The position numbers and the translations under genes are program-made. A model generated the notes under the pieces. The model was given only the letters and a program-made list of their open reading frames with translations. It searched no databases and was not told the origin of the DNA. A stretch of DNA of 32,001 bases, from contig CAJONE010000016.1 of NCBI GenBank assembly GCA_905235855.1, positions 1-32,001 on the forward strand, written 5' to 3'. Position 1 is the first letter of the stretch. The number at the start of each line of letters is the position of its first letter. Of the stretch, positions 1,312-16,213 are shown one piece after another. The DNA comes from an uncultured Bacteroidales bacterium. GTDB taxonomy: Bacteria; Bacteroidota; Bacteroidia; Bacteroidales; P3.

Positions 1312-2850
1312 TCAATTCTTCCATCGCATCGCCCGCTGCAAGCTCTTCACGTTCACCCGGATGGTGCACCCATCGTCGGTATTTTCCACCTTCTCTTGGA
1401 AATAGAAATGCTTTGGCGTCAATCCGCGGCTGATGCCTTCGTCAATCATTTTCTGGTACGCCTCAACATAGTTGTTGCCGATGTTGCCGTCGAGGATGGC
1501 GTTGCAGACTGCGTCCTTGATTTCGCCGACCGCCAGTGAGGGGCGCAGTTCGAAGGTGTTCATAATCAGCAGGCCGTCAATCGGGGGACGCCAATTACGC
1601 AGTTTGTCTTTCGCCTCAATCTCCACCAATTTGCGCCTTACGATCTGGAAATTATCCAGATACTTGCGCACTTTTTCGGGATTCTTGGAGGTGATGTCTG
1701 CATCGCAGAGCAACATCAAGTCGTCGATGTCATCGCCGGCGTCGAAAAGCAAGCGGCGCACGGCCGAGTCGGTCACAATGTCCTCCGCAAGGATTATGGG
1801 ACGCATGTGCAGCATTACCAGTTTTTCCACATAGCGTTCTGTGCCGTTAAGCGGAAGGTGCATTCTTTTGAAAATCGGTTTCACCATGTGGCTGCCCTTA
1901 GCCTCGTGGCCATGGAAAGTCCAGCCCACTCGCTGGTCGTAGCGTTTGCAGTAGGGTTTGCCGATGTCGTGCAGAAGCGCAGCCCATCGCAGCCACAAAT
2001 TGTCGGATTTTGCCGCTACATGGTCGAGTACCTCGAGTGTGTGGTAGAAATTGTCTTTGTGGGCGCGTCCGTTAACGGTCTCCACGCCTTTGAGTGCGGC
2101 AAGTTCTGGGAATATCAGTTTCAGCAGGCCAGACAAATTAAGCAGTTTGAACCCTGTCGACGGGTGTGGGGCGAGTATAATCTTGTTCAGTTCGGTGACA
2201 ATCCGTTCCTTTGACACTATGCCGATGCGCTCGGCATTGCCAGGAATGGCATTGAAGGTCTTTTCGTCGATGCGGAAACCAAGTTGTGTGGCGAAACGTA
2301 TTGCCCGCATCATACGTAGCGGGTCGTCGCTGAATGTGATGTCGGCATCGAGCGGAGTCCGTATAATACCATCGTTGAGGTCGCGTATACCCCCAAACGG
2401 ATCAATCAGTTCGCCGAAACTATCGTTGTTGAGCGAGAAGGCCATTGCGTTGATCGTGAAGTCTCGCCGGTTTTGGTCGTCCTCAAGTGTCCCGTTTTCG
2501 ACTATCGGTTTGCGGCTTTCGCGGCGATAGGATTCCTTGCGCGCACCGACGAATTCGATTTGCCAATCCTGGCTATTCCACCTGTAATGGAAAGCTGCGG
2601 TGCCGAAGTTTTGGTAGATCGAGACTTTGGTTTTCGGGTTTATGCTCGCAGCAGAGGCTTTGGCCAGTTCGATGCCGCTGCCGAGACATACTATATCGAT
2701 GTCGGTGCAGGGACGGCCGAGGAAATAGTCGCGCACTACACCGCCTACGGCATAGGCGTTCATGCCCAGTAGGTCGGCTTCGCGACCGATGATTTTGTAA
2801 ATAGGGTTGTCGAGCAAAAAGTCGGTTGGTGTTGTGGCGTCGGTGGGCAT
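1312..2850 (-). CDS. cca: CCA tRNA nucleotidyltransferase / HD domain protein
   Basis: The enzyme adds or repairs the 3' CCA end of tRNAs from CTP and ATP in the cytosol. It is a class II nucleotidyltransferase. Residues 35-41 carry AVGGVVRD, the acidic metal-binding pair is in TDIDIV at about 49-54, and the RRDFTINAM motif is at 128-136, followed by a helical RNA-binding region. An HD domain with LLHDIGKP lies near residue 290. At 512 residues it is close to the usual length in Bacteroidota. The frame stays open upstream to 3063, but that extension would run back through the MORN gene and looks like non-coding shadow, so I take the ATG at 2850. Only 17 bp separate it from the MORN lipoprotein gene, so it is probably the last gene of the long minus-strand cluster. 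Its housekeeping role may be unrelated to the genes before it. Confidence 0.93.
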   Translation of the reverse strand: MPTDATTPTDFLLDNPIYKIIGREADLLGMNAYAVGGVVRDYFLGRPCTDIDIVCLGSGIELAKASAASINPKTKVSIYQNFGTAAFHYRWNSQDWQIEFVGARKESYRRESRKPIVENGTLEDDQNRRDFTINAMAFSLNNDSFGELIDPFGGIRDLNDGIIRTPLDADITFSDDPLRMMRAIRFATQLGFRIDEKTFNAIPGNAERIGIVSKERIVTELNKIILAPHPSTGFKLLNLSGLLKLIFPELAALKGVETVNGRAHKDNFYHTLEVLDHVAAKSDNLWLRWAALLHDIGKPYCKRYDQRVGWTFHGHEAKGSHMVKPIFKRMHLPLNGTERYVEKLVMLHMRPIILAEDIVTDSAVRRLLFDAGDDIDDLMLLCDADITSKNPEKVRKYLDNFQIVRRKLVEIEAKDKLRNWRPPIDGLLIMNTFELRPSLAVGEIKDAVCNAILDGNIGNNYVEAYQKMIDEGISRGLTPKHFYFQEKVENTDDGCTIRVNVKSLQRAMRWKN

Positions 2851-2867
2851 AGACTCTGGTGTCGCTG

Positions 2868-3584
2868 TTAGAATTTCTGTCGTTGGACTATGTTGCCCTC
2901 CTCGTCGTAGAACTCCCATTCCCCGGTACGTTTGCCATTGTCGTAGAGACCGCAATAGTATGGTATGCCGCTGTCGCGAAACACGGTGTACTTCCCGTTT
3001 TCTCGTCCGTTGACAAATGTGGCCTCGGTCTGCAGAAGTCCGTTGGGGTGGTAGAAGAGCCATGGCCCTTCGCGTTTGCCGTCAACGGTTTTGCCCGAAG
3101 AGCGGAGTGCGCAGTTGCTGTAGAACTGGTAGATGAATTGGACGTTTGTCTGGTGGAACACCACGGTGGCCGGGGTTCCCAGCTCACTGTATTCGTTGAT
3201 GGAAAGAGAGTCGTAGTCGCCCCGTAGATAGGGGTTTCCCTGGCGGTCGAGCAGTTGCCAGTCGGCCCCGGATGTGTGGTTTGACGAATAGTTGCCCGTG
3301 GCGAAAAGCTCGCCGGTGGGGTAGTAGTAGCGGCATTCGCCGTCGGGATGGCTGTCCTTGCCGCTAAAATGTTTCTCATACTGCAGCTGTCCGTTGCTGT
3401 AATACATGCGTTCGGCGGTCTTGACGGCGTCTGTTTCGTTGCCCTTCATGGTGTAGACGAGTTGTTTGCCTCCGTCGGGATAGGTCGACACGACCTGCTC
3501 GAACTCCTTGGCACTGTCCGTGCACGCGGCAATAACAGTACAGGCAGCAGTTGCGAATGCCAAAAACTTGCTTCTCTTTGTCAT
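2868..3584 (-). CDS. MORN-like / YwqK-type repeat lipoprotein
   Basis: This 238-residue protein starts with a lipoprotein signal (hydrophobic core then VIAAC), so it is probably anchored in a membrane on the periplasmic or outer face. The mature part is built of repeated short hairpins of the type YYxNGxL, seen as YYSNGQLQYEK, YYPTGELFATG, FYHPNGLLQTEA and FYDEEGN. These units are often annotated as MORN-like or YwqK family antitoxin, a label that says little about function. I start at the ATG at 3584 because it gives a proper signal peptide; the longer frame to 3683 would overlap the preceding gene. It sits 67 bp after the DUF2490 gene and 17 bp before cca. The role is unknown, and a surface or periplasmic scaffold is a guess. 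Confidence 0.8.
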   Translation of the reverse strand: MTKRSKFLAFATAACTVIAACTDSAKEFEQVVSTYPDGGKQLVYTMKGNETDAVKTAERMYYSNGQLQYEKHFSGKDSHPDGECRYYYPTGELFATGNYSSNHTSGADWQLLDRQGNPYLRGDYDSLSINEYSELGTPATVVFHQTNVQFIYQFYSNCALRSSGKTVDGKREGPWLFYHPNGLLQTEATFVNGRENGKYTVFRDSGIPYYCGLYDNGKRTGEWEFYDEEGNIVQRQKF

Positions 3585-3651: not shown

Positions 3652-4362
3652 TTAGTCGAATTCGTATGCAAAGCCGAGTGCAAAAAAGCGGTCGGGATTC
3701 TTCACCTGTATTTCGGTGGCGGCTTTGAGCTGTAGGCTAATTGAATTGTGACGGTCGATTTGATATGTGGCGGTGGCGACGGTTCGGAATTCGTCGATGA
3801 TTTTCTTCGATGGGTGGTTTAGGCGTTGGAAACATTCCTCGGTGAGCGAAAACTTCCACGGTTTGTCGGGAATAGTGTAGCTTACCCCGATGCGGTTGCG
3901 CAGATAAAGCTGCGGGTTGTACTTGTAGTCGCCGATTGTTTCGTTGCGAAACGTGGTTTGCAGGCGCAGACGGTAGCCGATTGACCAGTTGCCGAGTTTC
4001 TTTGTAAGGTTAAGGTTCAGGTTGAGGCGGTGCTGGTCTTCGTAGTAGTGTTTCGAATTGTATCGGTAGATGAAGGCGTAGCTTGCGCCTAATTTTATCC
4101 GGATGCCGTGGGGTTTGAGACTGCGGCGAAAAAGCGACTGGGCAAGTGCCAGTGTGGTCTCGGTCTTTGTGAAACGGGTGCTCAGTTGCTTAAAACGAAG
4201 TTCCTCGGATATTGAAATTTCGGTACCCTTGACAATTGAGTGTGAGTATTGTGCCTCCCACTCTGTTCCGAAGTCGTAGTTTTGAGCCGTGATGAAGCCT
4301 GCCGGCAGCATGGCGGCACAGAGTGTCAGTAGCGTCGTAAGCCCTTTAATCCTGTTTTTCAC
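3652..4362 (-). CDS. DUF2490 family outer-membrane-type protein
   Basis: This 236-residue protein has a signal peptide ending at FITAQ and a body of alternating strands rich in aromatic residues and closing with phenylalanine (FALGFAYEFD, stop). That is the pattern of a small beta-barrel. The family hallmarks are the early EISISEELRFKQ segment, the central LRLQTTFRNE, then LYLRNRIGVSY and the late EFRTVATATYQIDRHNSISLQ. DUF2490 proteins have no settled biochemical role. It follows the DUF4956 gene by 46 bp, and a second DUF2490 gene sits at 7305-8150 in the same cluster. The two copies share layout but differ greatly in sequence, so they are not a recent duplication. I infer a location in the outer membrane. 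Confidence 0.82.
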   Translation of the reverse strand: MKNRIKGLTTLLTLCAAMLPAGFITAQNYDFGTEWEAQYSHSIVKGTEISISEELRFKQLSTRFTKTETTLALAQSLFRRSLKPHGIRIKLGASYAFIYRYNSKHYYEDQHRLNLNLNLTKKLGNWSIGYRLRLQTTFRNETIGDYKYNPQLYLRNRIGVSYTIPDKPWKFSLTEECFQRLNHPSKKIIDEFRTVATATYQIDRHNSISLQLKAATEIQVKNPDRFFALGFAYEFD

Positions 4363-4408
4363 GATTTCGGTTGACCTAAATGTCAGAAATAGGCGGTAAC
4401 GAAACGTC

Positions 4409-5212
4409 TCACACCGTTCCCTTGTATTTTGTTACCATATCGATGCTCGACCCCTGACCATTGGCCGGACGATAAAAAACCTTGATATAGGCTGTGTCTT
4501 TGAGAAAGTTGATATATCCGACCTCGGCTTTTACAATGTCGAGTCCGGTGCGTTGGCGCAGGTCGGCCAGCATGTCGTCGTAGCGTTCGGGCTTGATCAG
4601 GTCGATTTTCTCGTACATGATCATTTTTGTGGCTTGGGTGTTTTTTGTTCGGCTGCCGACACCGTACTCCATTGCCCATGTGGCGAGAATGACCAGCACA
4701 TTAGTTGTAAAAAGCGCCACATAGCTGCTGGCGGCCATACCAAAACCGTTGACTATTGAGATTCCGATTATCACGAAAAGGTAGGTCATCTCGCGAATCG
4801 GCACGGCATCGGTTCGGTAGCGCAACAGTCCGAATATGGCAAACAAACCCAATCCGAATCCGATTTCAATAGAGAGGTTTTTGAGCATGAACAGCAGCAC
4901 GAAAATTGTCACGCCGAAGAGCATATAGGTGAAATAGTAGTCTTTGCGGCGGCTTTTCTTGTAGTAGAAAAAGTGTACAATAATCCAGCACACCAAAGTG
5001 TTGAATGCAAAAAGTGCAAGCAGGTGGAGAAGTCCTGGGCCGTCGAAAACCGGAATACCAAGCATATCCATAACCGGTTGTTCCACACCATAGTGCGAGC
5101 TTATGATAGTGTCGGTAGCGTGTGAGGCCTGCTCGCTCAGAGTCTCGGCCAGTAGGTCGCTGTTAATCGGCGTTGTGTCGGTCAGCGGGGTTCCTGTGTA
5201 GATGTTTGCCAT
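4409..5212 (-). CDS. DUF4956 domain membrane protein
   Basis: This is a 267-residue inner-membrane protein. After a soluble N-terminal segment of about 58 residues there are four or five hydrophobic helices at roughly 61-83, 93-111, 114-132, 143-160 and 163-183. A cytosolic alpha/beta tail of about 80 residues follows. The family signature RYRTDAVPIREMTYLF spans about residues 131-146 and is well kept. DUF4956 genes are often found beside VTC polyphosphate polymerase domains in bacteria, as here, with the VTC gene 31 bp upstream. By analogy with the membrane subunits of the yeast VTC complex it may anchor the polymerase and pass the polymer across the membrane. That is inference; no activity is established for the family that I know of. 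Confidence 0.88.
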   Translation of the reverse strand: MANIYTGTPLTDTTPINSDLLAETLSEQASHATDTIISSHYGVEQPVMDMLGIPVFDGPGLLHLLALFAFNTLVCWIIVHFFYYKKSRRKDYYFTYMLFGVTIFVLLFMLKNLSIEIGFGLGLFAIFGLLRYRTDAVPIREMTYLFVIIGISIVNGFGMAASSYVALFTTNVLVILATWAMEYGVGSRTKNTQATKMIMYEKIDLIKPERYDDMLADLRQRTGLDIVKAEVGYINFLKDTAYIKVFYRPANGQGSSIDMVTKYKGTV

Positions 5213-5243
5213 ATTATAGTGATAAATGGTTAGTGAATGGTGA

Positions 5244-6032
5244 TTATTGAATGGTGATTATTCTGTTGTTGTCTATAACTTTCCCGATGAAACGAAGTTT
5301 TGGCTTAAAGCGGTTGGTTTTGGCGTCGGGGGCTGTAAGTGCGGTGCCGATGCAGTATTTGCTCATGCGTTTGGGGTGGATACGCATGTCCAGAAGAGCA
5401 TGGTCGATGGGTGTAGCGGGTGCGCCCACTTCACGTTTCACCTCCATCACCACAAGTGGCGAGAGGTCGCAGTCGATTCCCGACGTGTGGTTGTGAAAAC
5501 AGATTTCGCTGTCGATGGTGACACGCTCGTGCATTCCTTTGTCGACAAGTGTGATGCGGCGAAATGTGTTTTCGAGCTGGTCGTGTAGCGATGGGATAGC
5601 GTATGGGCTTTCCTTTAGCAGAAATTTGCACACCTCGTCGATTTCGAGGCAGCGGTCGAACATAGATGTGTCTATGGGTATGCGTATTTTGTTGGTTTTG
5701 CCTTTGTTGTTCTTGTTCTTTATTTCGAAAAAGGTGGTCTGGCTGTTGCGGTAGCAGCGCACACGCAGTTTCTGGCGGTTGAGTTTGCGGTTGTGGTGTG
5801 CGGTGTACATGGCAAGGTCGGCAGTGTCGAAATAAAGTGTGCGGTACGGTGCCAATGGTTCGCCGTCAATCCGCTGCACGTAGTAATATGGAGCTATGCG
5901 TTCAAGTAGGGCTGCAAGTTGCATGCGGTTGATCAGGAATTTGTCGTCCACGCGATTCATAAGCCGCACTGCCTTCATCTCACTCAGTGTGATGGGCGAC
6001 ATTGTGTCGAGTATGGGCTTGTATTGTTCCAA
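5244..6032 (-). CDS. Polyphosphate polymerase (VTC) domain protein
   Basis: This 262-residue soluble protein has the triphosphate-tunnel fold of the VTC4 polymerase domain, which makes polyphosphate from ATP in yeast. Tunnel residues expected in the family are present: Lys31 in VDDKFLI, TLYFDT at 65-70, Arg90 and Arg92 in KLRVRCY, Glu103 and Lys105 in FFEIKNK, Lys115 in the KTNKIRI region, an Arg159/Arg160 pair, Arg170 with Asp174 in ERVTIDSE, Glu197 and Lys199 in VVMEVKRE, and Lys225 in MSKYCIG. It lacks the SPX domain and membrane segments of eukaryotic VTC4, so the DUF4956 protein encoded next may supply the membrane part. A 14-bp tandem duplication (5235-5248 and 5249-5262) covers the stop codon but leaves the end of the protein almost unchanged. 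An active enzyme is likely but not shown. Confidence 0.9.
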   Translation of the reverse strand: MEQYKPILDTMSPITLSEMKAVRLMNRVDDKFLINRMQLAALLERIAPYYYVQRIDGEPLAPYRTLYFDTADLAMYTAHHNRKLNRQKLRVRCYRNSQTTFFEIKNKNNKGKTNKIRIPIDTSMFDRCLEIDEVCKFLLKESPYAIPSLHDQLENTFRRITLVDKGMHERVTIDSEICFHNHTSGIDCDLSPLVVMEVKREVGAPATPIDHALLDMRIHPKRMSKYCIGTALTAPDAKTNRFKPKLRFIGKVIDNNRIITIQ

Positions 6033-6094
6033 GGGGTGGTTGTTTAAGGGGTAGGGGATTCCTTAACGACTATGCCAGATTTGTTGCGGAGGTC

Positions 6095-6523
6095 CTATTG
6101 TTCACGGTATACGCGCTCGAATATCTTGGTGCTTTTTAGTTTTCCGTTTGGCAGGTAGGTGTATTGTTTTGCCTTGGTGCCGTCGGCATTGTAGTCGTAT
6201 TTCTTAATCGAAATCACCTTGTTCTTGTCGTTGTATTCTATTTCGCGGGCGCATTTGGTGTTGTTGCCCTCGTATTCGTAGACGATACGGTATTTCTGGC
6301 CGTAGGATGCATATTCAATCTCCTCGATTTTGCGCCCCTGCTCGTCGAAAGTTGTGATGTTGTCGAGAAATGGGGTCTGAGATCCGGCTTTCAAATTCCA
6401 CTCCTTGACCACGAGGTTTTTCTTCTTTTCGCGTTTGTTGCCCGTGGGCTGCTGGGCCATAAGGCTTACGGTGCACATGGTCAGAATTGACAATACAATA
6501 ATCTGTTTTGCTGATGATTTCAT
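6095..6523 (-). CDS. Small exported protein with YD/RHS-like strand repeats
   Basis: This 142-residue protein has a signal peptide (MKSSAKQIIVLSI, hydrophobic core, cut near LMAQ). The mature part repeats a short pattern of alternating strand residues around tyrosine and glycine or asparagine turns: TTFDEQGRKIEEIEY, YRIVYEYEGNN, YDYNADGTK and TYLPNGKL. It resembles YD or RHS-like and MORN-like repeats and is comparable in style to the lipoprotein at 2868-3584. The start at 6523 gives a clean signal peptide; the longer frame to 6547 adds only a polar leader. It lies 62 bp before the VTC gene and 38 bp after the lipoprotein gene. I do not recognise a specific family or function. Confidence 0.7.
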   Translation of the reverse strand: MKSSAKQIIVLSILTMCTVSLMAQQPTGNKREKKKNLVVKEWNLKAGSQTPFLDNITTFDEQGRKIEEIEYASYGQKYRIVYEYEGNNTKCAREIEYNDKNKVISIKKYDYNADGTKAKQYTYLPNGKLKSTKIFERVYREQ

Positions 6524-6561
6524 GGAATTTCTGTGTTTGTTGATCAAGTTGATGATGGTGG

Positions 6562-7272
6562 TCAGGCTTTCAGGCGTATCGAAAGGGTTTTGGCTTCGTA
6601 TATTTCGCCGCTGGTGCTTACTATCACGGTGTCGCTAACTATGTACGGTATTTCGTCGGCGTTGTCGCCAAATGTGTAGACAACGTAGGTGTCGGGCAGC
6701 AGTTTCTGGAAATAGTAATAGCCGTTGTCTCCTACGCGGGTGTCGTCGATGTGGTATGTGTCGCCCAAACGTTTCACGTATACACGTTGTTCGTAGGCAT
6801 TGGAGGTCATAATGTCGCCGTTTTTGTCGAAGTAGGTGGCGCGCACCCTGCCGCGTATCATCGATGTGCCGTAGGCTTTGCCGCGGTGGATGAATATGTC
6901 GTCGACAGTCACGGTTTGGCCGCGTTTCAGTGTCACGGTTTTTTTCTCGGCCACTTTTTCTCCCGTGGCCAGTTCGCTGTAGGCGAATATTGTGTAGTCG
7001 CCTGGTGTGAGATACTTGAAGCGGTAGGTTCCGTCGTCGCCGGCCTCGGTGTCGTCGCCGTAGAATATGTCGTCGCCATAAACGATGAACACGTCCTCTT
7101 TGGCCGCAGGCATCGTGTCGGCGGCAAGTGTGTAGTTATCGTCTGGATGGTTCACTTTGTATAGTTTTCCCATAATGGTTCCGGTGCCTCCCTCGCCCTC
7201 CTTGTTGCATCCGCACAGAGACATTGCAGCCATTGCTATTGCCGCCGTTACTATAAAAAAACGTCTGTTCAT
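6562..7272 (-). CDS. Lipoprotein with carboxypeptidase-regulatory-like (prealbumin-type) repeats
   Basis: This 236-residue protein has a lipoprotein signal peptide ending in SLCGC, so the mature N-terminus is a lipidated cysteine. Two similar beta-sandwich-like units follow. The first has DDGTYRFKYLTPGDYTIFAY near residues 82-101 and the second has DNGYYYFQKLLPDTYVVYTF near 180-200. The pattern G-x-Y-x-F-x-x-L-x-P-x-x-Y is typical of carboxypeptidase regulatory-like and SdrD B-like domains, which act as structural or adhesive modules on surface proteins. It lies between the DUF2490 gene (32 bp) and the small YD-like gene (38 bp) and shares their strand and export to the envelope. No enzymatic motif is visible. 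A structural part of a surface assembly is a reasonable inference. Confidence 0.75.
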   Translation of the reverse strand: MNRRFFIVTAAIAMAAMSLCGCNKEGEGGTGTIMGKLYKVNHPDDNYTLAADTMPAAKEDVFIVYGDDIFYGDDTEAGDDGTYRFKYLTPGDYTIFAYSELATGEKVAEKKTVTLKRGQTVTVDDIFIHRGKAYGTSMIRGRVRATYFDKNGDIMTSNAYEQRVYVKRLGDTYHIDDTRVGDNGYYYFQKLLPDTYVVYTFGDNADEIPYIVSDTVIVSTSGEIYEAKTLSIRLKA

Positions 7273-7304
7273 GTTGTATTTTGTAAGTTGTTGTTTTCTG
7301 GTTG

Positions 7305-8150
7305 TCAGAATGAGAAACGGTAGTTTATGCCCAGATGCCCCTTGAAGCCGTATTCGCGGGAGTAGGACTTGAGTGTTGTCCCTTCTTTGTTGGCGTCGAC
7401 CACTTTGTCGCTGAAGTAGTCGCCCATAAAGTAGAAATCAAGGGTGTTGCGGCGGTCGAGCGTAACCTCAATTCCAATCGCACCTCGATACCTGTTTATG
7501 TAACCGCCGTTGAATCCGGTGAGAAACCAACCTTCCTCGCCGTCGTCCTCGCCGTCCATTGTGTAGTAGGCCGTGCCGTCGTAGGCAGCGCTGATAACGG
7601 GTGCGTTCATATAGTTTCGGAGTTCGAAATAGGTGTAGGGTTCAACGCGTCTGAATCCCTTGTATTTCAGCATAAGACGGCTTTTTAGCGTTAGTGCGCA
7701 GGCCGGATTCTGGTAGGGGTTGTAGTCGCCTGTGCGGAAAGTTGCCTGAAAACGTTCTTTCAGCGAAAGATTCCAGTTACCCAGTTTGAGTGTGCCTGTG
7801 ATGTCGGCAAATACTCGCAGTCTGGGGTTTTTGAACTTGGTTTTGGAATGGTTATAAGAGTTTATAAGTGCGGAACCGAGTCCGACTTTTATGTTCTCAT
7901 GTGCCTTGTATTTCACTGCAAGAGTGGTGTGGAAGCGGTCGAAACTCTTGAAGTTGTTGTCGAAACGCAACTCTTCTTCGAGCGAGATGTGTAGCCCTTT
8001 TATAATTTTTTTGTCCACGCTTGCCGATACACGAGCACCGATCTCGGCTGCCTGTTTTTCGTCGGTCTGTGAACTCACGGACAGGGGCAATGCAAGCAGA
8101 ATGGCTGATGCGGCAAGTGTTCGGATTAGTATTTTCTTTGCGCTTTTCAT
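7305..8150 (-). CDS. DUF2490 family outer-membrane-type protein (second copy)
   Basis: This 281-residue protein has a signal peptide (MKSAKKILIRTLAASAILL to about LSVSSQ) and a beta-barrel-like body. The family pattern is clear: GLHISLEEELRFDNNFKSFDRF, then LGNWNLSLKERFQATFRTG, LTLKSRLMLKYK, a late VTLDRRNTLDFYFMGDYF and a terminal aromatic residue (LGINYRFSF, stop). It starts 20 bp downstream of the beta-helix lipoprotein gene, so the two are very likely co-transcribed. Compared with the DUF2490 protein at 3652-4362 it is about 45 residues longer, with an extra loop holding GEDDGEEGW. Two divergent members in one operon suggest two different channels or docking barrels, but the role of the family is not known. 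Confidence 0.82.
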   Translation of the reverse strand: MKSAKKILIRTLAASAILLALPLSVSSQTDEKQAAEIGARVSASVDKKIIKGLHISLEEELRFDNNFKSFDRFHTTLAVKYKAHENIKVGLGSALINSYNHSKTKFKNPRLRVFADITGTLKLGNWNLSLKERFQATFRTGDYNPYQNPACALTLKSRLMLKYKGFRRVEPYTYFELRNYMNAPVISAAYDGTAYYTMDGEDDGEEGWFLTGFNGGYINRYRGAIGIEVTLDRRNTLDFYFMGDYFSDKVVDANKEGTTLKSYSREYGFKGHLGINYRFSF

Positions 8151-8170
8151 TGTTTCTTTTGTCTGAAAAA

Positions 8171-9880
8171 TTAATGACCTGGACCGCCGCCCGGATTGCC
8201 TCCTCCACCAGGCCCGCCGGGGTTGCCGCCTCCTCCATTTCCACCGGTGTATTCAGACATACTTACTGACGATCCGCCACTTATGTCGCCTCCCACGGTG
8301 AAAGTGCCGTTGAAATAGGATGTGCCGCCGCTGACGGTGATTCCAGATGTCAGTGACGGTTGTGATGAACCTGAAACCACGAGTCCGTTTCCGCCGTTCG
8401 AAGGCGTTTTGAACGCATAGGTGTTGTCGCCCACGGTCAAACCGTACCATGTGTTTGCCGACCACGACGAGGTCGAGTAACATGTTTGGGTTAGAGACGA
8501 GTTGTTTTCAAGACCGCCGATAGCCAGCAGAGTGCCCCCTGTAAGATAAAGTTTGTAGCCGCCCTCGGTGTTGGCATCGATGCCCACTTCGGGTTGGGAT
8601 GCGCCAATGGCATAGACTATACCTCCCTTTACATAAAAATTGCCGTTGGCATCCATTCCATCGTTCGATGTGGCGTGGGCGCACACCATGCCGTCCTCTA
8701 TGGTGAAGTCGCCTGCCGAGTTTATGCCGTCGTCAGCCGCCGAATAGCCGTAAACCACGCCTCCGGTGACTTTTATGGATCCCTTTGACTCAATGGCCTC
8801 GTGGCTGGCGGAGCTGACGCTGACTGTTGAACCGGAAAAAGTTAGGTCGCCGTCGAACTTTATTCCTTTGGCCGATATGTCGCCTGTTGTGTAGTTAGAA
8901 CCTGTAGTGGTCACTGTAACGGTGCCGCCGCTGAACACTCCTGTTCCGTCGCCGCTGATGCCCTTACCGCCGCTGCCAGTGTTGGTGATGGTAAGTGTGC
9001 CGCCGCTCATGGAGAAGGCATCAGACGATTTTATTCCGGCGGTTCCGTCGTAATCTGACTCCTCGCTGTCGTAAGTGGCGTTGCCGCTCACCTTTAAGGT
9101 CGTTGTGCCGCCGCTTATGGTCACCGATCCGTCGGATGTGATGCCTTTTTTGCCGTCGGCAGACGTTGTGATATCCAGCATTCCACCTGATACGATAACT
9201 TTGTTTTTGCCACGAATGCCGTGACCAGATGTTGTGTTGATTGCCACTGTTGGCGAGTCGAGAATGCGGGCGTAAGAATCTGATGTGATGCCTGATTTGC
9301 CTATGGCTGTCACTGTCAGTGAGCCAGTGCCGCTTATCAAAAGTGCGCCCTCCGAAAAAAGTGCGGCCTTTTCGTCCTCGTCGCTCGGAGTCTCGCTGTA
9401 GGTCGTACCGTCGGCAAGTTCGCAGGTTCCACTGATCACTATGTAAGTACGTTTGCCACTCGACGGATAGTTTTTTGACCCCTGTATGTTTATGGCAGCG
9501 CCAGAGCTGTTCTTTATCGTTGCGCTGTTGAGACAGATTGCCTGTTTTTCGGTGCTGTAGATTTTTAGGTAGCCGTTGTTTGTTGTGCCAGAAACGTTAT
9601 ACTGTACGGCGTCGGTACCGTTGTTTACGATAGTGACACAGTTATCTGAAATTGTCGTCTCAAAGTCGCTTGTAACGCCTGTAACCAGAGCGGTTTCGCT
9701 GGTGCTGAAAACCACATCAACTGTGCGGGTGAATGCGATGTTCTCGACGTAGTCGTTTGGATTGTCGGTTTCGGTGTATTCGACGATGTTGTCTTTCCCG
9801 CAAGCGGCAATCATCAAACTGCAAGCCAATAGCGCTGGCAACGATTTGTGAAATACAGTTGCTTTTGATTTTTGTTGCAT
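8171..9880 (-). CDS. Beta-helix carbohydrate-binding-domain lipoprotein (Cthe_2159-like)
   Basis: This 569-residue protein has a lipoprotein signal with LMIAAC at its end, so it should be anchored by lipid. The body is a long run of short repeated rungs such as GSVTISGG, GSIKVTGG, GDFTIEDG and GGTLTITNTG, alternating with KGITSDG or DDGINSAG turns. This is the pattern of the Cthe_2159-type right-handed beta-helix annotated as a carbohydrate-binding domain; the founding Clostridium protein binds cellulose and polygalacturonate. The C-terminus ends in a low-complexity Gly/Pro/Asn tail and a final His. I start at 9880 because this gives a proper signal; the longer frame to 10015 runs into the previous gene. 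The gap to that gene is 70 bp. Binding of a glycan is predicted from the family and the ligand is unknown. Confidence 0.85.
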   Translation of the reverse strand: MQQKSKATVFHKSLPALLACSLMIAACGKDNIVEYTETDNPNDYVENIAFTRTVDVVFSTSETALVTGVTSDFETTISDNCVTIVNNGTDAVQYNVSGTTNNGYLKIYSTEKQAICLNSATIKNSSGAAINIQGSKNYPSSGKRTYIVISGTCELADGTTYSETPSDEDEKAALFSEGALLISGTGSLTVTAIGKSGITSDSYARILDSPTVAINTTSGHGIRGKNKVIVSGGMLDITTSADGKKGITSDGSVTISGGTTTLKVSGNATYDSEESDYDGTAGIKSSDAFSMSGGTLTITNTGSGGKGISGDGTGVFSGGTVTVTTTGSNYTTGDISAKGIKFDGDLTFSGSTVSVSSASHEAIESKGSIKVTGGVVYGYSAADDGINSAGDFTIEDGMVCAHATSNDGMDANGNFYVKGGIVYAIGASQPEVGIDANTEGGYKLYLTGGTLLAIGGLENNSSLTQTCYSTSSWSANTWYGLTVGDNTYAFKTPSNGGNGLVVSGSSQPSLTSGITVSGGTSYFNGTFTVGGDISGGSSVSMSEYTGGNGGGGNPGGPGGGGNPGGGPGH

Positions 9881-9950
9881 TATGTTGGTTGTGAGTCGTT
9901 TATAAAGTCGATGGCGAGCTGATGAAAATGCTCGCCATCGTATCTGTGTT

Positions 9951-12900
9951 TTATTGTGCTGTGGCTGATGTGCCATTGCCCGACGTTGTGACCGAGGCAC
10001 CACTATAGAGACCATGCCAGTCGGTGCCGCCGCTTATGGTTGGCGAAGTCCAGTAGGTGTAGCTTCCGGACTGGATCTGTGGCGTGGTAACGTATATGCC
10101 GCTGCTGCCGCCTGGTTTTGCGCCGGTCGTGTTGTCTTCAAAACCGCTTTGTCCGGTCGATACCGCGGGCCATTTGAATGTTATTATCTCGCTGCCGCTG
10201 CTGTTCTTCACCGTGAATCCGTTTTGGGCTGTGGTTAGAGCACCGCTCGAACCGCCGCCGCCCCATGGGTTGCCGCCGCCCGTCGAACTGCTTATCGTTA
10301 TCGACTTTTGCCCCGTTAGCTCAGGTGTGGCTTCGGTTATGCCCATGCTGCCACCTATGAGTACCATAGTGCAGTTTGTGGCTTTGATATATCCGCCGCG
10401 GTCGCCGCAGTCGTCCACAGTCACCTCGGTGCCGCTGGCTATTATGGTGCCGCCGTTTATCTCGATTGTTATAGTAGAATTAGATGAGCCGCCCCATCCG
10501 CCACCGCCGCTGTTTTCGGCACCGTTGCAGTCGATTGCGTCGTTGCCACGTGCGTAGGCCCAGATGTGCCCGTCGTTAATTCGTATGAAATTGGATGCGT
10601 TGATGGCATCGTCGTATGAGTTGGCTTCGATGTATCCGCCGTTGATTATGATGGAGTCCTTGCTTTCGATAGCCTCGCCGCTAGGGTCGCCGCTGGTCTG
10701 TGCACAGAAAGAACACACGTGGCCGCTGTTGATGTGGATCGATCCGGTTACCTTGATGCCCTTGGGCAGTCCTTTCCAATAGTCGGAGCTACTGCCGCCA
10801 CCAGGACCGAAACCGCCGCCAGATGTTGTGTTGACAGCCGTTCCGGAGGTTTTTGCGAAAACATGCGTCAGGTCGTCGTTGGCACCAGTTGTACCTACGT
10901 TGAATGTGCCGTCGACCTTGAAGCCGCGTCCGCCTTTGCCAGTGCTTACGCACGAGATGGTTCCGGCGTTGATATATACGTTGGCATCGGTCGATACGCC
11001 TGCCGAGCAGTATCCGTCGGTGGCCGACGTGCCGCTGCCGCTTGTCACGGCTCCGGCTCCAGATGTGGTGATGTTAACCGTGCCGCCGTTCTGGATATAG
11101 TTGGTGTCGGCCGATACTCCTTTGCCACCTACGGTCATGGTGATATTACCACCGTTGACGGTCACATTGGCGTTGCTCTTGATGCCGACTGTGGTGTAGC
11201 TCTTTGTAGTGGAGTTGAGTGTGTAGGTGCCGCTTGTACCAAGAGCCGAAAGGGTAATGCTGCCTGCGTTGATTGTCACGTTTCCGTCGGCCGAGATGCA
11301 CTTGCCGCCGGCGTTTGCCGTCGAGCAGGTGACGTTCACCGTGCCTCCGCTGACAGTGGTGTTGCCATCGGTCTTGATACCGCTGCAGTAGGAGATGCCT
11401 GTGGCATCGGTCACATAGGTTCCGTTGGCTTTCACAGTAGTCGAGCCGCCGGTTATCGACAGGTTGCCGTCGGCTTTGATGCCTTTCGACTGGTTGCCGG
11501 TCACGGTGATGTCGTGTGTGCCATTGCTGATTAGGATATTGGCGTTGCCGCTTATGCCCTTTGCGTCGGCACCGCTCATATTGACGGTTATGTTGCCGCC
11601 GGCGATTGTTATGTTGCCGTCACATCCTATGCCTTTCACGCCGCTACCGGTGCTTATGACGTTGATGGTTCCTCCGGTGACCTGAATGTAGCCTTGGTCG
11701 CCGTCGATTCCGTCGCCTTGACTGTTGACGGTCAGTGAGCCATCCTGCATAATGAAGTCGTCAACGTTCATGCCGTCGCCGGTCGTGGACTGGTTGACGA
11801 TGTTTACTGTTCCGCTCATCATTATGGTTTTTCCGCTGCTTTGGAAAGCATGTTTGGTATATCCCTTCACGGTGAGGCTACCGTCGCCCTGTATTTCGAT
11901 TTTGCCCTGGCTTTGCAGTGCGGCCTTGTGTTCTACGGCAGTGATATTGGTTGTGTCGCTCACATAGTTGGCTGTGCCTGGCGCGAGGTGCAGCGTTACG
12001 CGGTGGTCGTCCACCACGCGTATGGCAGAACTGCTGCCGCTGTGCAGGTGCAGTCCGTCCATATACAAGACAAGGCTACTGTCGGTGTTGATGACGAGGC
12101 TGCCGTCGACTGATGTTCCGTCGAGGATGTAGGTGAGGTCATCGATTCCTGTTGCAGCGTTGACTGTTACATTTTCGCCGCTGGCGGTGATGGTGAGCCC
12201 TTGGCTACTGTATCCGTTCACAATGGTTGGAGCTGCCCCGTTGTTCCATGTTATGTGTATGCCATTTTCGGTGTCTACAGCGGTGGTGTCGTGCTGCTCA
12301 ATGACACCTGGGTCGTCGGTGTCGTTAATTGCGAAGTAGGCAGTGTAGGTGGCGTTGTCGGTAACAGTAACATAGCGTGTGGCTTCGGTGTTGTTGTCGT
12401 TCCATCGCACGAAGTGATATCCCGAGTTGGCCGTAGCCGAGATAGGTGTTGTGGTGTTGGCCAAAAACTGTCCGCCCCCCACGGTGTTGCCCATCGTGGT
12501 GTTGTCGGAGACGACGGTGAGAGTGTAGTATACATCGGCCTCGAAATAGGCGGTGTAGGTCGCGTTGGCGTTGACAGTCACAGTGCGTTCGGCTTCGGTC
12601 ACGTTGTCGTTCCATCGTACGAAATGGTATCCGCTGTAAGGAGTGGCCGATATGGTGGCTGTGCTGCCTGCCAGATATTGTCCGCTTCCATGGGTAACAC
12701 CCATCGAGCTATTGTTGGCCGTGACGTTGAGGGTGTAGTATGTGTCGGTCGAGCCGTTGGCCTCGAAGTAGGCATAGCGCGTTATGGATGATGTTACCGT
12801 AAAGCTGCGTGTTGCCGAGGTGTTGCCGTCGTCCCACCGGGTGAAATGGTATCCGGTGTTGGCAGCCGCCGATATGGTGGCCGTGCTGCCTTCAAGATAG

Positions 12901-13421
12901 TATCCTGTGCCGCTTGTGGTGCCCATATCAGTGTTTGACGAGATAGCCTGAACGAGGTAGGTCACGTCTTCCTCGAAATAGGCTGTATAGGTGGCGTTTC
13001 CGCTGACGGTCACCACACGTGTTGCCTCGGTGTTGCCGTCGTTCCACTGTTTGAAGTGGTATCCGTCGTTGGCTGTGGCAATGATGGTAACCTGTGCGCC
13101 GAGTGTGAGACCCGTGCCGCCGCCCACGGCTGTACCCATGGTTGCATTAGCGGTCTGCACAGTGACGCTGTAGGTTGTAACAGGTGTCGAGCCGTTGTTG
13201 AAAAACGTTATACTGTCTATTTCGGAAAAACCTTTTGCCATGTCGATACCGTTGACAGTGAATGTGGCTACGCCCTGGTTGAGCTTTACCGAGTTGACGG
13301 TTGATGTGTTCCACTGGGTTGTGACATCACCGTTTTTATGAATTCGCAGGCTATAGTTTTGGGCCGCTGCAAACAATGTGCAGCACATCAAAAATGCAAG
13401 TGTCAGAATCTTGTTTTTCAT
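9951..13421 (-). CDS. Large exported beta-helix carbohydrate-binding protein with four InlB-like repeats
   Basis: This 1156-residue protein starts with a signal peptide cut near FAAAQ. Residues 22-75 form a small strand-rich module ending FSEIDSITFF, a common Bacteroidota motif. Four repeats of about 70 residues follow at 84-150, 155-220, 229-294 and 299-364. Each has the pattern T-M-G-x-x-x-G-x-G, GYHFxxWxDxNTEA and TYTAYFE of the divergent InlB B-repeat. From about 430 to 1060 there is a long beta-helix of the Cthe_2159 type (GNITIAGGNITV, GNTTVSGGTVNV and so on) with glycine-rich loops. The end has no type IX sorting domain. An ATG at 13433 is also possible and would overlap the previous stop codon; the ATG at 13421 gives the better signal peptide. 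Surface adhesion or matrix binding is the likely role, by family. Confidence 0.85.
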   Translation of the reverse strand: MKNKILTLAFLMCCTLFAAAQNYSLRIHKNGDVTTQWNTSTVNSVKLNQGVATFTVNGIDMAKGFSEIDSITFFNNGSTPVTTYSVTVQTANATMGTAVGGGTGLTLGAQVTIIATANDGYHFKQWNDGNTEATRVVTVSGNATYTAYFEEDVTYLVQAISSNTDMGTTSGTGYYLEGSTATISAAANTGYHFTRWDDGNTSATRSFTVTSSITRYAYFEANGSTDTYYTLNVTANNSSMGVTHGSGQYLAGSTATISATPYSGYHFVRWNDNVTEAERTVTVNANATYTAYFEADVYYTLTVVSDNTTMGNTVGGGQFLANTTTPISATANSGYHFVRWNDNNTEATRYVTVTDNATYTAYFAINDTDDPGVIEQHDTTAVDTENGIHITWNNGAAPTIVNGYSSQGLTITASGENVTVNAATGIDDLTYILDGTSVDGSLVINTDSSLVLYMDGLHLHSGSSSAIRVVDDHRVTLHLAPGTANYVSDTTNITAVEHKAALQSQGKIEIQGDGSLTVKGYTKHAFQSSGKTIMMSGTVNIVNQSTTGDGMNVDDFIMQDGSLTVNSQGDGIDGDQGYIQVTGGTINVISTGSGVKGIGCDGNITIAGGNITVNMSGADAKGISGNANILISNGTHDITVTGNQSKGIKADGNLSITGGSTTVKANGTYVTDATGISYCSGIKTDGNTTVSGGTVNVTCSTANAGGKCISADGNVTINAGSITLSALGTSGTYTLNSTTKSYTTVGIKSNANVTVNGGNITMTVGGKGVSADTNYIQNGGTVNITTSGAGAVTSGSGTSATDGYCSAGVSTDANVYINAGTISCVSTGKGGRGFKVDGTFNVGTTGANDDLTHVFAKTSGTAVNTTSGGGFGPGGGSSSDYWKGLPKGIKVTGSIHINSGHVCSFCAQTSGDPSGEAIESKDSIIINGGYIEANSYDDAINASNFIRINDGHIWAYARGNDAIDCNGAENSGGGGWGGSSNSTITIEINGGTIIASGTEVTVDDCGDRGGYIKATNCTMVLIGGSMGITEATPELTGQKSITISSSTGGGNPWGGGGSSGALTTAQNGFTVKNSSGSEIITFKWPAVSTGQSGFEDNTTGAKPGGSSGIYVTTPQIQSGSYTYWTSPTISGGTDWHGLYSGASVTTSGNGTSATAQ
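12330..13172 (-). repeat. Four in-gene tandem repeats of about 70 codons (InlB B-repeat type)
   Basis: The four units encode the same GYHFxxWxD and TYTAYFE motifs with a period of roughly 210-216 bp. They differ in many positions, so they are old duplications. Each probably folds as a small beta-grasp-like domain forming a stalk. Confidence 0.8.
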
Positions 13422-13426
13422 AGCTG

Positions 13427-13912
13427 TTACCATTTGCAGAGTTTGGTGGTTGTGTTGTTTATCTTTACCATATAAATGGCCGACGGAAGTCCGGAAATGT
13501 CCAGACGGCCACCTTCCTCGACGGTTGTGTCAATCAATAGTGCGCCTGTCATTGTGTAGACACTCACTCTGTGTGGGCCGCTCTCGTTGGTGCGAACTAT
13601 GCAGTATTCCTTTGCGGGATTAGGATAGAGAATAGGCGCTGATGTGGCACTAATGTCGTTTATGCCCGACAAACCATCAGAGAATTTCATTGATCGGATT
13701 CCCGACATTTGGATTGATGTTTCGTCGCTTGTGGCGGACTCCTTTATTATTACGTAGTCGCCGTTGAACGTGATGTTTCCGTCGGTCTGCACCGTGTAGG
13801 TGTAAACGGCACCGCTCGTTCGGGTGACAGTCACGGTCGATTGTGACCATACCGAATCTGGAGAGAAAAACTGCAGTGTGAGAATCGCTGCCAACAAGAA
13901 ATTCTTTTTCAT
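13427..13912 (-). CDS. Short exported protein with type IX secretion C-terminal sorting domain
   Basis: This 161-residue protein has a signal peptide (MKKNFLLAAILTLQFF, cut near VWSQ). A short strand-rich part at about 25-80 follows, ending IRSMKFSDG, and resembles the N-terminal module of the large protein encoded next. The C-terminal 70 residues have the hallmarks of a type A type IX sorting domain: ILYPNPAKEY near 94-103, VSVYTMTGALL, LDISGLPSAIYMVKI and a last basic strand TTKLCKW. Such domains send proteins through the type IX system to the cell surface. It is odd that almost nothing but the sorting domain is present, while the large beta-helix protein next door has none. It is the first gene of the cluster, 4-12 bp from the next start depending on start choice. 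Confidence 0.82.
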   Translation of the reverse strand: MKKNFLLAAILTLQFFSPDSVWSQSTVTVTRTSGAVYTYTVQTDGNITFNGDYVIIKESATSDETSIQMSGIRSMKFSDGLSGINDISATSAPILYPNPAKEYCIVRTNESGPHRVSVYTMTGALLIDTTVEEGGRLDISGLPSAIYMVKINNTTTKLCKW

Positions 13913-13990: not shown

Positions 13991-14018
13991 CATTTGACAA
14001 ACATTGTATTGTCAAATG
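13991..14018. promoter_or_regulatory. Perfect inverted repeat, candidate operator
   Basis: CATTTGACAA (13991-14000) and TTGTCAAATG (14009-14018) are exact reverse complements separated by 8 bp. The site lies between divergent genes, so a transcription terminator is unlikely. It covers the expected -33 region of the cluster promoter and is about 70-80 bp upstream of the expected araC-type transcript start. It is a plausible binding site for the adjacent AraC-type protein or another dimeric regulator. Confidence 0.6.
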
Positions 14019-14072
14019 AGTATAAAAATTTTGCAATTTTTCTTTTGAGCCGAACATTTTTGCTGTTTTGAC

Positions 14073-14080
14073 TAATTTTG
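14073..14080 (+). promoter_or_regulatory. -7 promoter element of the AraC-type gene
   Basis: TAATTTTG fits TAnnTTTG and would give a start near 14087. This makes the ATG at 14107, not 14068, the likely start codon. A TTTG lies at 14044-14047, slightly farther upstream than usual. Confidence 0.5.
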
Positions 14081-14106
14081 CAGTAAAATTAACAAATTTA
14101 TATGAG

Positions 14107-14952
14107 ATGGAGAATCCAGTAGATTTTGTAAGACAGTTGCAGGATGTTCTTGATGAAAAAGGTGTAATTGTTATTGATAATGTGACAGCTATGCCAGCCT
14201 ACAATATGAACTATGTGCAGCCATACTATACTATCAGTATCAACCACTGCGGCTCGGTTGAAGGTCTGTATGAGAGCAATGACTTTGTTTTTTCGCGACA
14301 TGATATATCAGTTCTATATCCAGGACATACAATCTATATTCAAAAATCCTCTCCCGACTATTGTGCCTCTCTCATCATCATCTCTGATCGAATTTATAGT
14401 CAATTGAATTTTATCAACACCAGCGACAACCGTTTTTTGTTTGAGACAGAACCTCATTTCAGACTTGCTGATCGGCAGTATGCCGAAGTCCTCTCCATTG
14501 TCGAGGTGTTTCGTGTTATCAACGGGCTTTCTCATGTTAACCGTAATGAGATGCATGCGACCTTACTGGAAGTCTTTATGAGTGTCATAGTCAGTTTCAG
14601 GATTGAAAATGTAGGAAAAGGCTCTGATGGGAAAAATCGTATCAGTCCGCTTCTGTACGATGCAATCAATATGCACTGCCACCAGCATCACGACGTGGAG
14701 TTTTATGCTGATCTTTTTTGTCTATCGCCAAAACACTTCAGTGCTGTGGTGAAACGAGAGACAGGCTACGGTGCCAGCCATTGGATTCAGCAGCAGATTG
14801 TTGCAGATGCCAAGTCGTTGTTGCGTACCGAGCATCAGACCTCAATACAGGAAATCAGCGACCGCATTGGCTTTCCAGATCTGGCCACGTTCAGCCGTTT
14901 CTTCAAACGCCAGACCGGAATGACACCATCGGCTTTCCGCCAGTCGTTGTAG
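14107..14952 (+). CDS. AraC family transcriptional regulator
   Basis: This is a 281-residue DNA-binding regulator. The N-terminal 180 residues form a sensor-like part with cupin-style strands (YYTISINHCGSVEGLY, then HDISVLYPGHTIYI). The C-terminal 100 residues are a typical AraC DNA-binding domain: a first helix-turn-helix around YADLFCLSPKHFSAVVKRETG, and a second around SIQEISDRIGFPDLATFSRFFK followed by the conserved KRQTGMTPSAFR. It is transcribed away from the beta-helix/VTC cluster, and the 194-bp gap holds both promoters and a perfect inverted repeat. This layout is common for a local regulator, so control of the cluster is a fair inference. The ligand is unknown. I prefer the start at 14107 because the promoter element overlaps the upstream ATG. 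Confidence 0.9.
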   Translation: MENPVDFVRQLQDVLDEKGVIVIDNVTAMPAYNMNYVQPYYTISINHCGSVEGLYESNDFVFSRHDISVLYPGHTIYIQKSSPDYCASLIIISDRIYSQLNFINTSDNRFLFETEPHFRLADRQYAEVLSIVEVFRVINGLSHVNRNEMHATLLEVFMSVIVSFRIENVGKGSDGKNRISPLLYDAINMHCHQHHDVEFYADLFCLSPKHFSAVVKRETGYGASHWIQQQIVADAKSLLRTEHQTSIQEISDRIGFPDLATFSRFFKRQTGMTPSAFRQSL

Positions 14953-14965
14953 TGTATTGTATCGG

Positions 14966-16213
14966 CTACTCTGCCCCGGACCTTTTCTTATTGCGCACAA
15001 ACAGTTCTATGCCGTAGTGCCATTCTATATAGTCGGCATGTGCCGCATGAGCCTTGATCGAAACTCCCGCGAATTGGTTCAGGCGGTTCCCGAAGTGGAA
15101 AAACACTCCGAGCCTTTCGTAGAATGGTATATCCACAGCTTCGGACTTCACAATATAATAGCCTGCCGACAGGCGTATTGACATGCAACCCCATCTCGGT
15201 TCAAAACTTAGTGCCGTGGCGAGATATGGCATAACGTTTTTTTTACGGTACAAGGTCTCCACTATTTCGGTGTGGCTGCTGTTGTACATTACGTCAATGT
15301 TCGCTCCGAAGCCGAGACACTGGTTCGGATAGAACATATAACCAGCCTGTGCGGTATATGCAAAGTAGTAGTAGTCCTGTTTGGGCTTCACATTTCGTGT
15401 GCCGAGCCAACGTGTCTGCACTGCCGCAGGCGCGAAAGAGAGCCATATCCGGTGCGATGAGAACCGTGATCCACCGCGCCAGAATTCGGAATTGCGCACA
15501 GCCAGTAGCGAGTCGGGCTGCGATGCTTTACCGTACGTCTGCGTGGTGAACATTCGCCGGTTGCTAAAACGGTATCCTGCGGTAGCTACCAAGTAGTTGA
15601 GTCCCTGGTTTGGTTTCAGCATATACCCGTTTGACGAATGAGTGAAGCGCAGGCTGAATGTAAGTGCCGAATGGTCGTGAAAGCCTATTGTGTAACCTGC
15701 ACCGAGGTTGAATATGCAGTTCAGGTATGAGCCGATAAACTGATTGAGTGTGTCGTGCGATCGTTCGTGAGGGTTGGTGAATATGGATAGTCCTACGCCA
15801 GTGTACCAGAACAGTTCGTGGTTATAGTGGTTTTGCTTGGATTGTGTGTCGCCGCTTGCGGTCGAACGCCATACGACGTTTTGCATTTCCGCCGTCAAGG
15901 AAATGCGGTCGCCGGCTATGCCGTAGTTCGAATGCAGATATTCAAGATGCAGGCCGAAACGTGGCTGCTTCCAAAACTGTTCCCAGTATTCAGTGCCGTC
16001 CACCTGCCAGTCGGCTGCGATTGCAGCCCCGAAGTCGCTTGCTGCTATGTATGAGTATTGTTTTGAGTTAGGTATTGTGGCACCACCAATTACCGATATC
16101 ATATACTCGGCGCGCCGGCTCATCCAGTGCGATTCCTGTGTGTAGGCTGTCACCACGTTGCACAGTGCAATGCAGCACAACAGTCGCCGTCTGGTATTAA
16201 TTACGTTGTTCAT
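14966..16213 (-). CDS. Acyloxyacyl hydrolase (PagL-like lipid A deacylase)
   Basis: This 415-residue outer membrane protein has a signal peptide (basic RRRLL, hydrophobic stretch, cut near AYTQ). PagL enzymes are beta-barrels that remove the 3-O acyl chain from lipid A. The active-site strand is seen as LRFTHSSNGYMLKPNQGLN at about 188-206, with His192 and a following Ser in the expected HxSN spacing. It is about twice the length of classical PagL. The second half holds more strands and ends with KAHAAHADYIEWHYGIELF, a pattern I recall from Bacteroidota members of this family. The ATG overlaps the end of an open reading segment downstream of ligA (ATGA). It converges on the AraC-type gene with 13 bp between. 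Lipid A remodelling is likely, but exact bond specificity is not certain. Confidence 0.75.
   Translation of the reverse strand: MNNVINTRRRLLCCIALCNVVTAYTQESHWMSRRAEYMISVIGGATIPNSKQYSYIAASDFGAAIAADWQVDGTEYWEQFWKQPRFGLHLEYLHSNYGIAGDRISLTAEMQNVVWRSTASGDTQSKQNHYNHELFWYTGVGLSIFTNPHERSHDTLNQFIGSYLNCIFNLGAGYTIGFHDHSALTFSLRFTHSSNGYMLKPNQGLNYLVATAGYRFSNRRMFTTQTYGKASQPDSLLAVRNSEFWRGGSRFSSHRIWLSFAPAAVQTRWLGTRNVKPKQDYYYFAYTAQAGYMFYPNQCLGFGANIDVMYNSSHTEIVETLYRKKNVMPYLATALSFEPRWGCMSIRLSAGYYIVKSEAVDIPFYERLGVFFHFGNRLNQFAGVSIKAHAAHADYIEWHYGIELFVRNKKRSGAE

Follow-up and report, generated by a model that had tools for sequence, protein, structure and literature searches.

What does a Vtc4-like polymerase domain do in the middle of a run of genes for exported proteins? 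This question is raised by a nine-gene operon in the genome of an uncultured Bacteroidales bacterium (contig 16, CAJONE010000016.1, of the 2.25-Mb assembly GCA_905235855.1, here G000, 93% complete), of which we analyzed positions 1 to 32,001, hereafter the window. The nine consecutive open reading frames (ORFs) occupy 3652-13912 on the minus strand, and the gaps between them are -7, 70, 20, 32, 38, 62, 31 and 46 bp, the 38-bp value assuming an ATG at 6523 where a longer TTG ORF begins at 6547; the close spacing described in the original prediction was thereby confirmed. The domain content found by a Pfam scan of ten window proteins (the nine operon genes and a downstream MORN protein; E 0.1) was also near that claimed. 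Seven of the nine operon proteins have a signal-peptide-like or lipoprotein N-terminus, assigned by eye, while the VTC protein has none and the DUF4956 protein is membrane-embedded. We tentatively favor the reading that the operon encodes an envelope-spanning system for polyphosphate (polyP) synthesis and export, in which synthesis appears likely and export plausible.

That these genes form one system, as had been proposed, is well supported, since their order recurs in other genomes and VTC, DUF4956 and DUF2490 co-occur by genome. For the locus survey we took the best 80 of 569 confirmed DUF4956 loci from named genomes, nearly all titled Bacteroidales or kin, fetched with an alignment of DUF4956 relatives, and ran profiles made from the window's own proteins against all of their ORFs. 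The closest of these 80, L021, comes from an uncultured rumen Bacteroidales metagenome-assembled genome (DUF4956 identity 86%). VTC was present along with DUF4956 in 76 of the 76 evaluable loci, DUF4956 lying at the edge in the other four. Full context (at least 7.5 kb upstream and at least 4 kb downstream) was available for 52 loci, every one of which carried VTC, DUF4956 and a small DUF2963-like gene. Of these 52, DUF2490 was present in 41 and the lipoprotein in 31; 22 had a Cthe_2159 protein, 6 had MORN and 1 had an adaptor match. The DUF2963-like gene immediately preceded VTC in 70 of the 72 loci where this could be tested, and DUF2490 directly followed DUF4956 in 44 of 75. Thus, the constant third partner of VTC and DUF4956 is the small DUF2963-like exported protein (6095..6523; PF11178, 2.7e-5, just above the cut-off), and the beta-helix proteins, which the original prediction had emphasized as glycan-binding components, are accessory. 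Two architectures recurred: TAIL-BH1-LIPO-G150-VTC-DUF4956-DUF2490b, where G150 denotes the DUF2963-like gene and BH1 and BH2 the first and second beta-helix genes, and BH2-DUF2490a placed either before or after G150-VTC-DUF4956. Among 81 maps, some of them truncated, both modules were combined in the window only. A Pfam scan of 20 representative non-core neighbors returned mostly housekeeping or unrelated families, with one AraC regulator and two proteins without a match.

Presence by genome was examined in 61 genomes of the family and 198 of the phylum (completeness filter 90%). Of the 61 family genomes, the 10 with VTC were also the 10 with DUF4956, the two genes being at neighboring positions (Fisher, P = 1.1e-11, uncorrected for kinship), and all 37 VTC genomes of the phylum also had DUF4956 (59 genomes), CotH being found in 80. 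DUF2490 exceeded its cut-off in nine family genomes, all VTC-positive; two weaker matches sit in VTC-negative ones. Cthe_2159 was present in 10 of 10 VTC genomes of the family (beside VTC in seven), and also in 14 of the 51 without VTC. CotH occurred in 9 of 61, adjoining VTC in two (G041 and G035), and had no match in the window's whole genome. PPK1 was found in 15 family genomes and in none of the 10 bearing VTC, PPK2 matched none of the 61, and neither matched in the window's own genome. Two further gene arrangements were seen: in G052 a Cthe_2159/DUF2490 pair (L194, 5932-8624) lies on a different contig from the VTC-DUF4956 pair, and a third DUF2490 gene of the window's genome (L193, 7537-8166) shares its contig, 86, with an adaptor-profile match.

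The case for synthesis centers on the VTC domain protein (5244..6032; PF09359, 2.1e-29; 103.2 bits against a Pfam cut-off of 23), a predicted cytosolic, Vtc4-like polyP polymerase. A profile of 26 bacterial VTC proteins placed Vtc4 at the top (3g3q, 1.8e-18), followed by Vtc2 (2.1e-10) and Vtc3 (8.6e-6), both matched over part of their length only. Nineteen columns were invariant among the 26 proteins; at 16 of them the Vtc4 chain has the identical residue (R196, K200, Y241, D243, R264, R266, Y268, E279, K281, K294, R361, R373, D377, E426, K428 and K458; numbered as chain 5iiq minus 3, in agreement with the full-length 8i6v row), and three differ, at A260, A262 and S375. The yeast catalytic tunnel residues K200, R264, R266, R361, R373, E426 and K458 were all aligned and invariant, with K200, R361 and R373 being residues that we take to be catalytic in the Vtc4 tunnel. 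R264 and E426 correspond to R90 and E197 of the window protein. In the accessible parts of the respective papers, changes at R264, R266 and E426 impair or inactivate yeast VTC (PMC9911596) and K458 is termed catalytic in Vtc4 (PMC4641920). The accessible text of the latter also describes tripolyphosphatase relatives in which four basic guide residues are replaced by glutamates; R196 and K428 presumably belong to these four positions. Because the bacterial proteins keep both residues basic, their sequences favor a polymerase rather than a hydrolase, and we consider that the VTC protein probably synthesizes polyP.

Encoded 31 bp downstream is the proposed translocation partner, the DUF4956 inner-membrane protein (4409..5212; PF16316, 1.5e-50), with five helices and a C-terminal alpha/beta domain. 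The better structural model (pLDDT 83) placed long helices at residues 58-87, 90-112, 118-133, 139-161 and 164-187, along with a lower-confidence N-terminal helix and the C-terminal domain. R131 and R133 were the only invariant columns in an alignment of 86 DUF4956 proteins reaching down to 11% identity (A3); in a second alignment of 102 rows (A4), R133 was invariant and R131 conserved in more than 90%. Basic residues of membrane proteins generally face the cytosol (the positive-inside rule), and on this ground R131, R133 and the KKSRRK loop would lie on the same side as VTC. A distant likeness to MgtC is suggested by profile comparison: the Pfam MgtC model matched two DUF4956 places (G079:C1 and G066:C21) at E values of 8-9e-4, under the cut-off, and A3 scored 91.7% against MgtC (E = 7.8e-7; controls, 0.5% against VTC and 0.1% against DUF2490), whereas A4 scored 0.3%, so the two DUF4956 profiles disagree. 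At E 0.1 the window protein matched DUF4956 alone and not MgtC/SapB (PF02308), and no solved structure clearly matches DUF4956. The idea that polyP made inside is handed out through DUF4956 is consistent with the Vtc4-type active site and the conserved arginines, and we lean slightly towards such a transfer.

Two DUF2490 outer-membrane-type proteins are candidates for the next step: DUF2490b (3652..4362; PF10677, 6.6e-14), right after DUF4956, and DUF2490a (7305..8150; PF10677, 4.6e-15), the partner of the second beta-helix protein. We surveyed 40 VTC sites in 36 phylum genomes besides G000, leaving out a short second fragment in G082 and counting same-strand neighbors up to 6 kb away. DUF4956 was present at all 40 sites, an HlyD-like adaptor at 23, CotH at 13, DUF2490 at 12 and an OEP-profile match at 2, with neither adaptor nor DUF2490 at 5. 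Adaptor and DUF2490 were mutually exclusive; this exclusion counts as one split, because in a tree of 60 DUF4956 proteins the two labels track one deep branch (100/100). A smaller adaptor class is backed by Pfam (HlyD_3 in L158, 1e-7; HlyD_D23 in L151, 4.9e-12), and a larger one is tied weakly to it (e.g., L161 to L153 at 6e-7). Locus L151 brings together CotH, DUF4956, an adaptor, a TolC-like OEP and VTC, and in L181 a VTC-less DUF4956 adjoins OEP and adaptor genes. Porin_O_P follows a VTC-less DUF4956 in L186 (2.5e-7) and also follows DUF4956 in L172 (2.4e-47), a locus on a Pseudoalteromonas plasmid where a remnant of VTC lies upstream. Two reference titles within PMC4849052 describe OprO as polyphosphate- or pyrophosphate-selective. 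These adaptor, TolC and phosphate-porin neighbors are consistent with the predicted outward passage, and we regard arrival of polyP at the surface through DUF2490 as possible, with some reserve.

The VTC-less and CotH-linked loci showed several other arrangements. In L186 (6616-10801), four successive genes encode myo-inositol-1-phosphate synthase, DUF4956, Porin_O_P and CotH; eukaryotic VTC is regulated by inositol pyrophosphates, which makes the synthase neighbor suggestive. In L176 (7763-10871), a VTC-less DUF4956 is followed by a secreted-looking protein without a Pfam match, whose DFD motif, in our estimation, recalls CotH-like kinases, and then by a calcineurin-like phosphoesterase that weakly matches purple acid phosphatases. 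In L144 (6145-13039), DUF4956 and VTC flank a CotH protein that has a weak beta-helix match, and an O-antigen-ligase-like (Wzy_C) gene and a methyltransferase gene adjoin the three. Outside the phylum, Deinococcus taeanensis has CotH-PPP-DUF4956 and Deinococcus sp. QL22 has PPP-DUF4956 without CotH.

In the mechanism that we propose, cytosolic VTC would polymerize the terminal phosphate of ATP, and the anionic chain would pass to DUF4956, whose five inner-membrane helices may form a pore. The chain would then exit via a DUF2490 outer-membrane protein. The DUF2963-like protein and the lipoprotein might work either periplasmically or at the outer membrane. The beta-helix and type IX sorting proteins could be surface proteins particular to this lineage, retaining the product or making use of it; the roles given here to the DUF2963-like, lipoprotein and beta-helix proteins are guesses.

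Other accounts of the locus were weighed against the same observations. A chance or housekeeping juxtaposition of unrelated genes is barely credible: the non-core genes vary among loci, and most of the 20 scanned representatives appear unrelated to envelope export, but the constancy of DUF4956 beside VTC (76/76) and of the DUF2963-like gene (52/52) speaks against it, and co-occurrence by genome together with locus conservation had already disfavored it. VTC and DUF4956 might instead move polyP to the periplasm only, in phosphate or divalent-metal homeostasis, with the exported proteins serving a separate envelope function. Such a role would suit the MgtC likeness of DUF4956, and neither the Deinococcus cluster nor the Gram-positive set, as listed in the accessible part of PMC7112168, shows an outer-membrane partner; we nevertheless find it rather unlikely, given that profile A4 misses MgtC and that the recurrent outer-membrane-type and adaptor partners point to passage further out.

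Both remaining accounts draw on the CotH-linked cassettes. In one, the pair provides an extramembrane phosphoryl donor for secreted CotH-type kinases, and in the present bacterium surface proteins would be polyphosphorylated or another kinase would act. CotH genes do stand beside VTC at 13 of the 40 phylum sites, in two family genomes and in Deinococcus, and belong to the Gram-positive set in the text available from PMC7112168, but 27 of the 40 sites are without a CotH neighbor and the window's genome is without a CotH match, and we judge this donor role unlikely. In the other, the VTC-domain protein uses a different substrate, for example as a matrix-polysaccharide accessory, and no polyP is made. 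The cassette adjoins Pel genes in Gram-positives, according to the same portion of PMC7112168, and the Wzy_C and methyltransferase genes in L144; set against this are the Vtc4-type active site with R196 and K428 retained as basic residues and the lack of any polysaccharide-synthesis match in the ten scanned window proteins, which leave a different substrate quite improbable.

The favored export reading also has to accommodate the remaining genes of the operon and its surroundings. Gene 1 (13427..13912) encodes an exported 161-aa protein with a type IX sorting tail (PF18962, 2.2e-11; TIGR04183, 2.2e-12). It is followed by an exported beta-helix protein of 1160 aa (9951..13433), which combines four Flg_new_2/InlB repeat stretches (PF18998) with a Cthe_2159 domain (PF14262, 5e-49) and matches PDB 4peu at 7e-6. 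The second beta-helix protein (8171..9880; Cthe_2159, PF14262, 2.4e-38) is lipoprotein-like, with 569 aa, a lipobox-like IAAC and a Gly-rich tail; a longer ORF begins at 10015, and 9880 is the lipoprotein-like start. Cthe_2159 proteins bind celluloses and polygalacturonic acid in the accessible text of PMC6712302, and acidic-polymer binding is therefore at least in character. Between DUF2490a and the DUF2963-like gene lies a lipoprotein-like protein with a carboxypeptidase-regulatory-like domain (6562..7272; PF13620, CarboxypepD_reg, 2.8e-7, just under the cut-off). The divergent AraC-type regulator predicted at the operon head was found at 14068..14952 on the plus strand (AraC-like matches) and probably controls the operon; its homologs stand upstream in L083, L086, L089, L090, L097, L034 and L032 (phmmer). 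The intergenic region holds a 28-bp inverted repeat (13991..14018; 10-bp arms, 8-bp spacer), a candidate operator, and L083 and L089 each have a repeat of equal geometry and different sequence in the corresponding region. Past the operon, the minus-strand run goes on with a MORN-repeat lipoprotein-like protein (2868..3584; PF07661, 9.5e-17, scanned from a longer ORF starting at 3683), possibly a lineage-specific operon extension, and a CCA-adding-enzyme-like gene (1312-3063, minus strand; named by eye from the sequence), a synteny common to L021, L022 and L023. Beyond the regulator, positions 14966-16213 encode an exported-looking 415-aa protein with an HSNG motif, which presumably resembles PagL-kind lipid A deacylases.

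A broader and somewhat doubtful extension is that these loci represent a widespread, dedicated bacterial polyP export machine. Such a machine would couple a Vtc4-type polymerase with DUF4956 as its translocase. Its outward modules would be exchangeable (an HlyD-like adaptor with TolC, an OprO/P-type porin or DUF2490), and its users would differ by lineage (CotH kinases or, as here, DUF2963-like and beta-helix surface proteins). If true, it would be a polymer-secretion pathway with a logic like that of the yeast vacuolar VTC, in genomes that match neither PPK1 nor PPK2; it would unite DUF4956, DUF2490 and the CotH-linked cassettes under one function, and open extracellular polyP of bacteria to genetic tests in ordinary Bacteroides. 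PPK1 is regarded as the main source of bacterial polyP, for instance in the accessible part of the review PMC10657179. We found no described bacterial machine that makes polyP intracellularly and exports it across the envelope, and no description of this Bacteroidales operon or of polyP export by VTC and DUF4956, in a literature search that left most subscription papers and preprints outside. The literature thus agrees with the original prediction that no system with the full set has been characterized, although a subset is already published from Gram-positives.

That subset, CotH-PPP-DUF4956(-DUF4832), is an accessory set beside Gram-positive Pel operons that carries no tested function in the accessible text of PMC7112168. 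It resembles the window operon in having a VTC-domain gene next to DUF4956, as may the VTC/CotH locus NELoc-2, whose VTC neighbor is annotated 'tubulin/FtsZ' in the available part of PMC2879425 and is, at a guess, a DUF4956 gene. The window operon differs in having no CotH, and goes beyond the set with its DUF2490, DUF2963-like, lipoprotein, beta-helix and type IX sorting genes. An adjacent DUF4956 and DUF2490 pair is also known from Bacteroides thetaiotaomicron, BT3498-BT3499, whose expression was 7.6-fold lower in low iron without reaching significance (P = 0.175; accessible part of PMC10434189, which assigns the pair no function). MgtC/SapB membrane proteins are alike in the weak profile match across the membrane helices, and differ in that the DUF4956 match falls under the Pfam cut-off. 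The HlyD/TolC tripartite exporters offer a further parallel, since an adaptor-like gene and, rarely, an OEP flank DUF4956 in other Bacteroidota; here the inner-membrane part would be DUF4956 rather than an ABC, RND or MFS pump, and there was no HlyD or OEP match in the ten scanned proteins and no adaptor-profile match in the window.

The proposed logic also resembles that of the yeast VTC complex (Vtc1/Vtc3/Vtc4), a vacuolar polymerase-translocase. SPX and Vtc1-type (DUF202) transmembrane domains, which characterize the eukaryotic complex, had no Pfam match in the ten window proteins at E 0.1, and DUF4956 forms the membrane part as a protein of its own. Shared by both systems are a tunnel domain of the Vtc4 type whose active-site residues agree, a membrane partner, and basic residues proposed as guides for the chain. 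In yeast, polyP synthesis is coupled to passage via a basic-lined channel (accessible text of PMC9911596). The bacterial system is set in a two-membrane envelope, together with outer-membrane-type and surface proteins.

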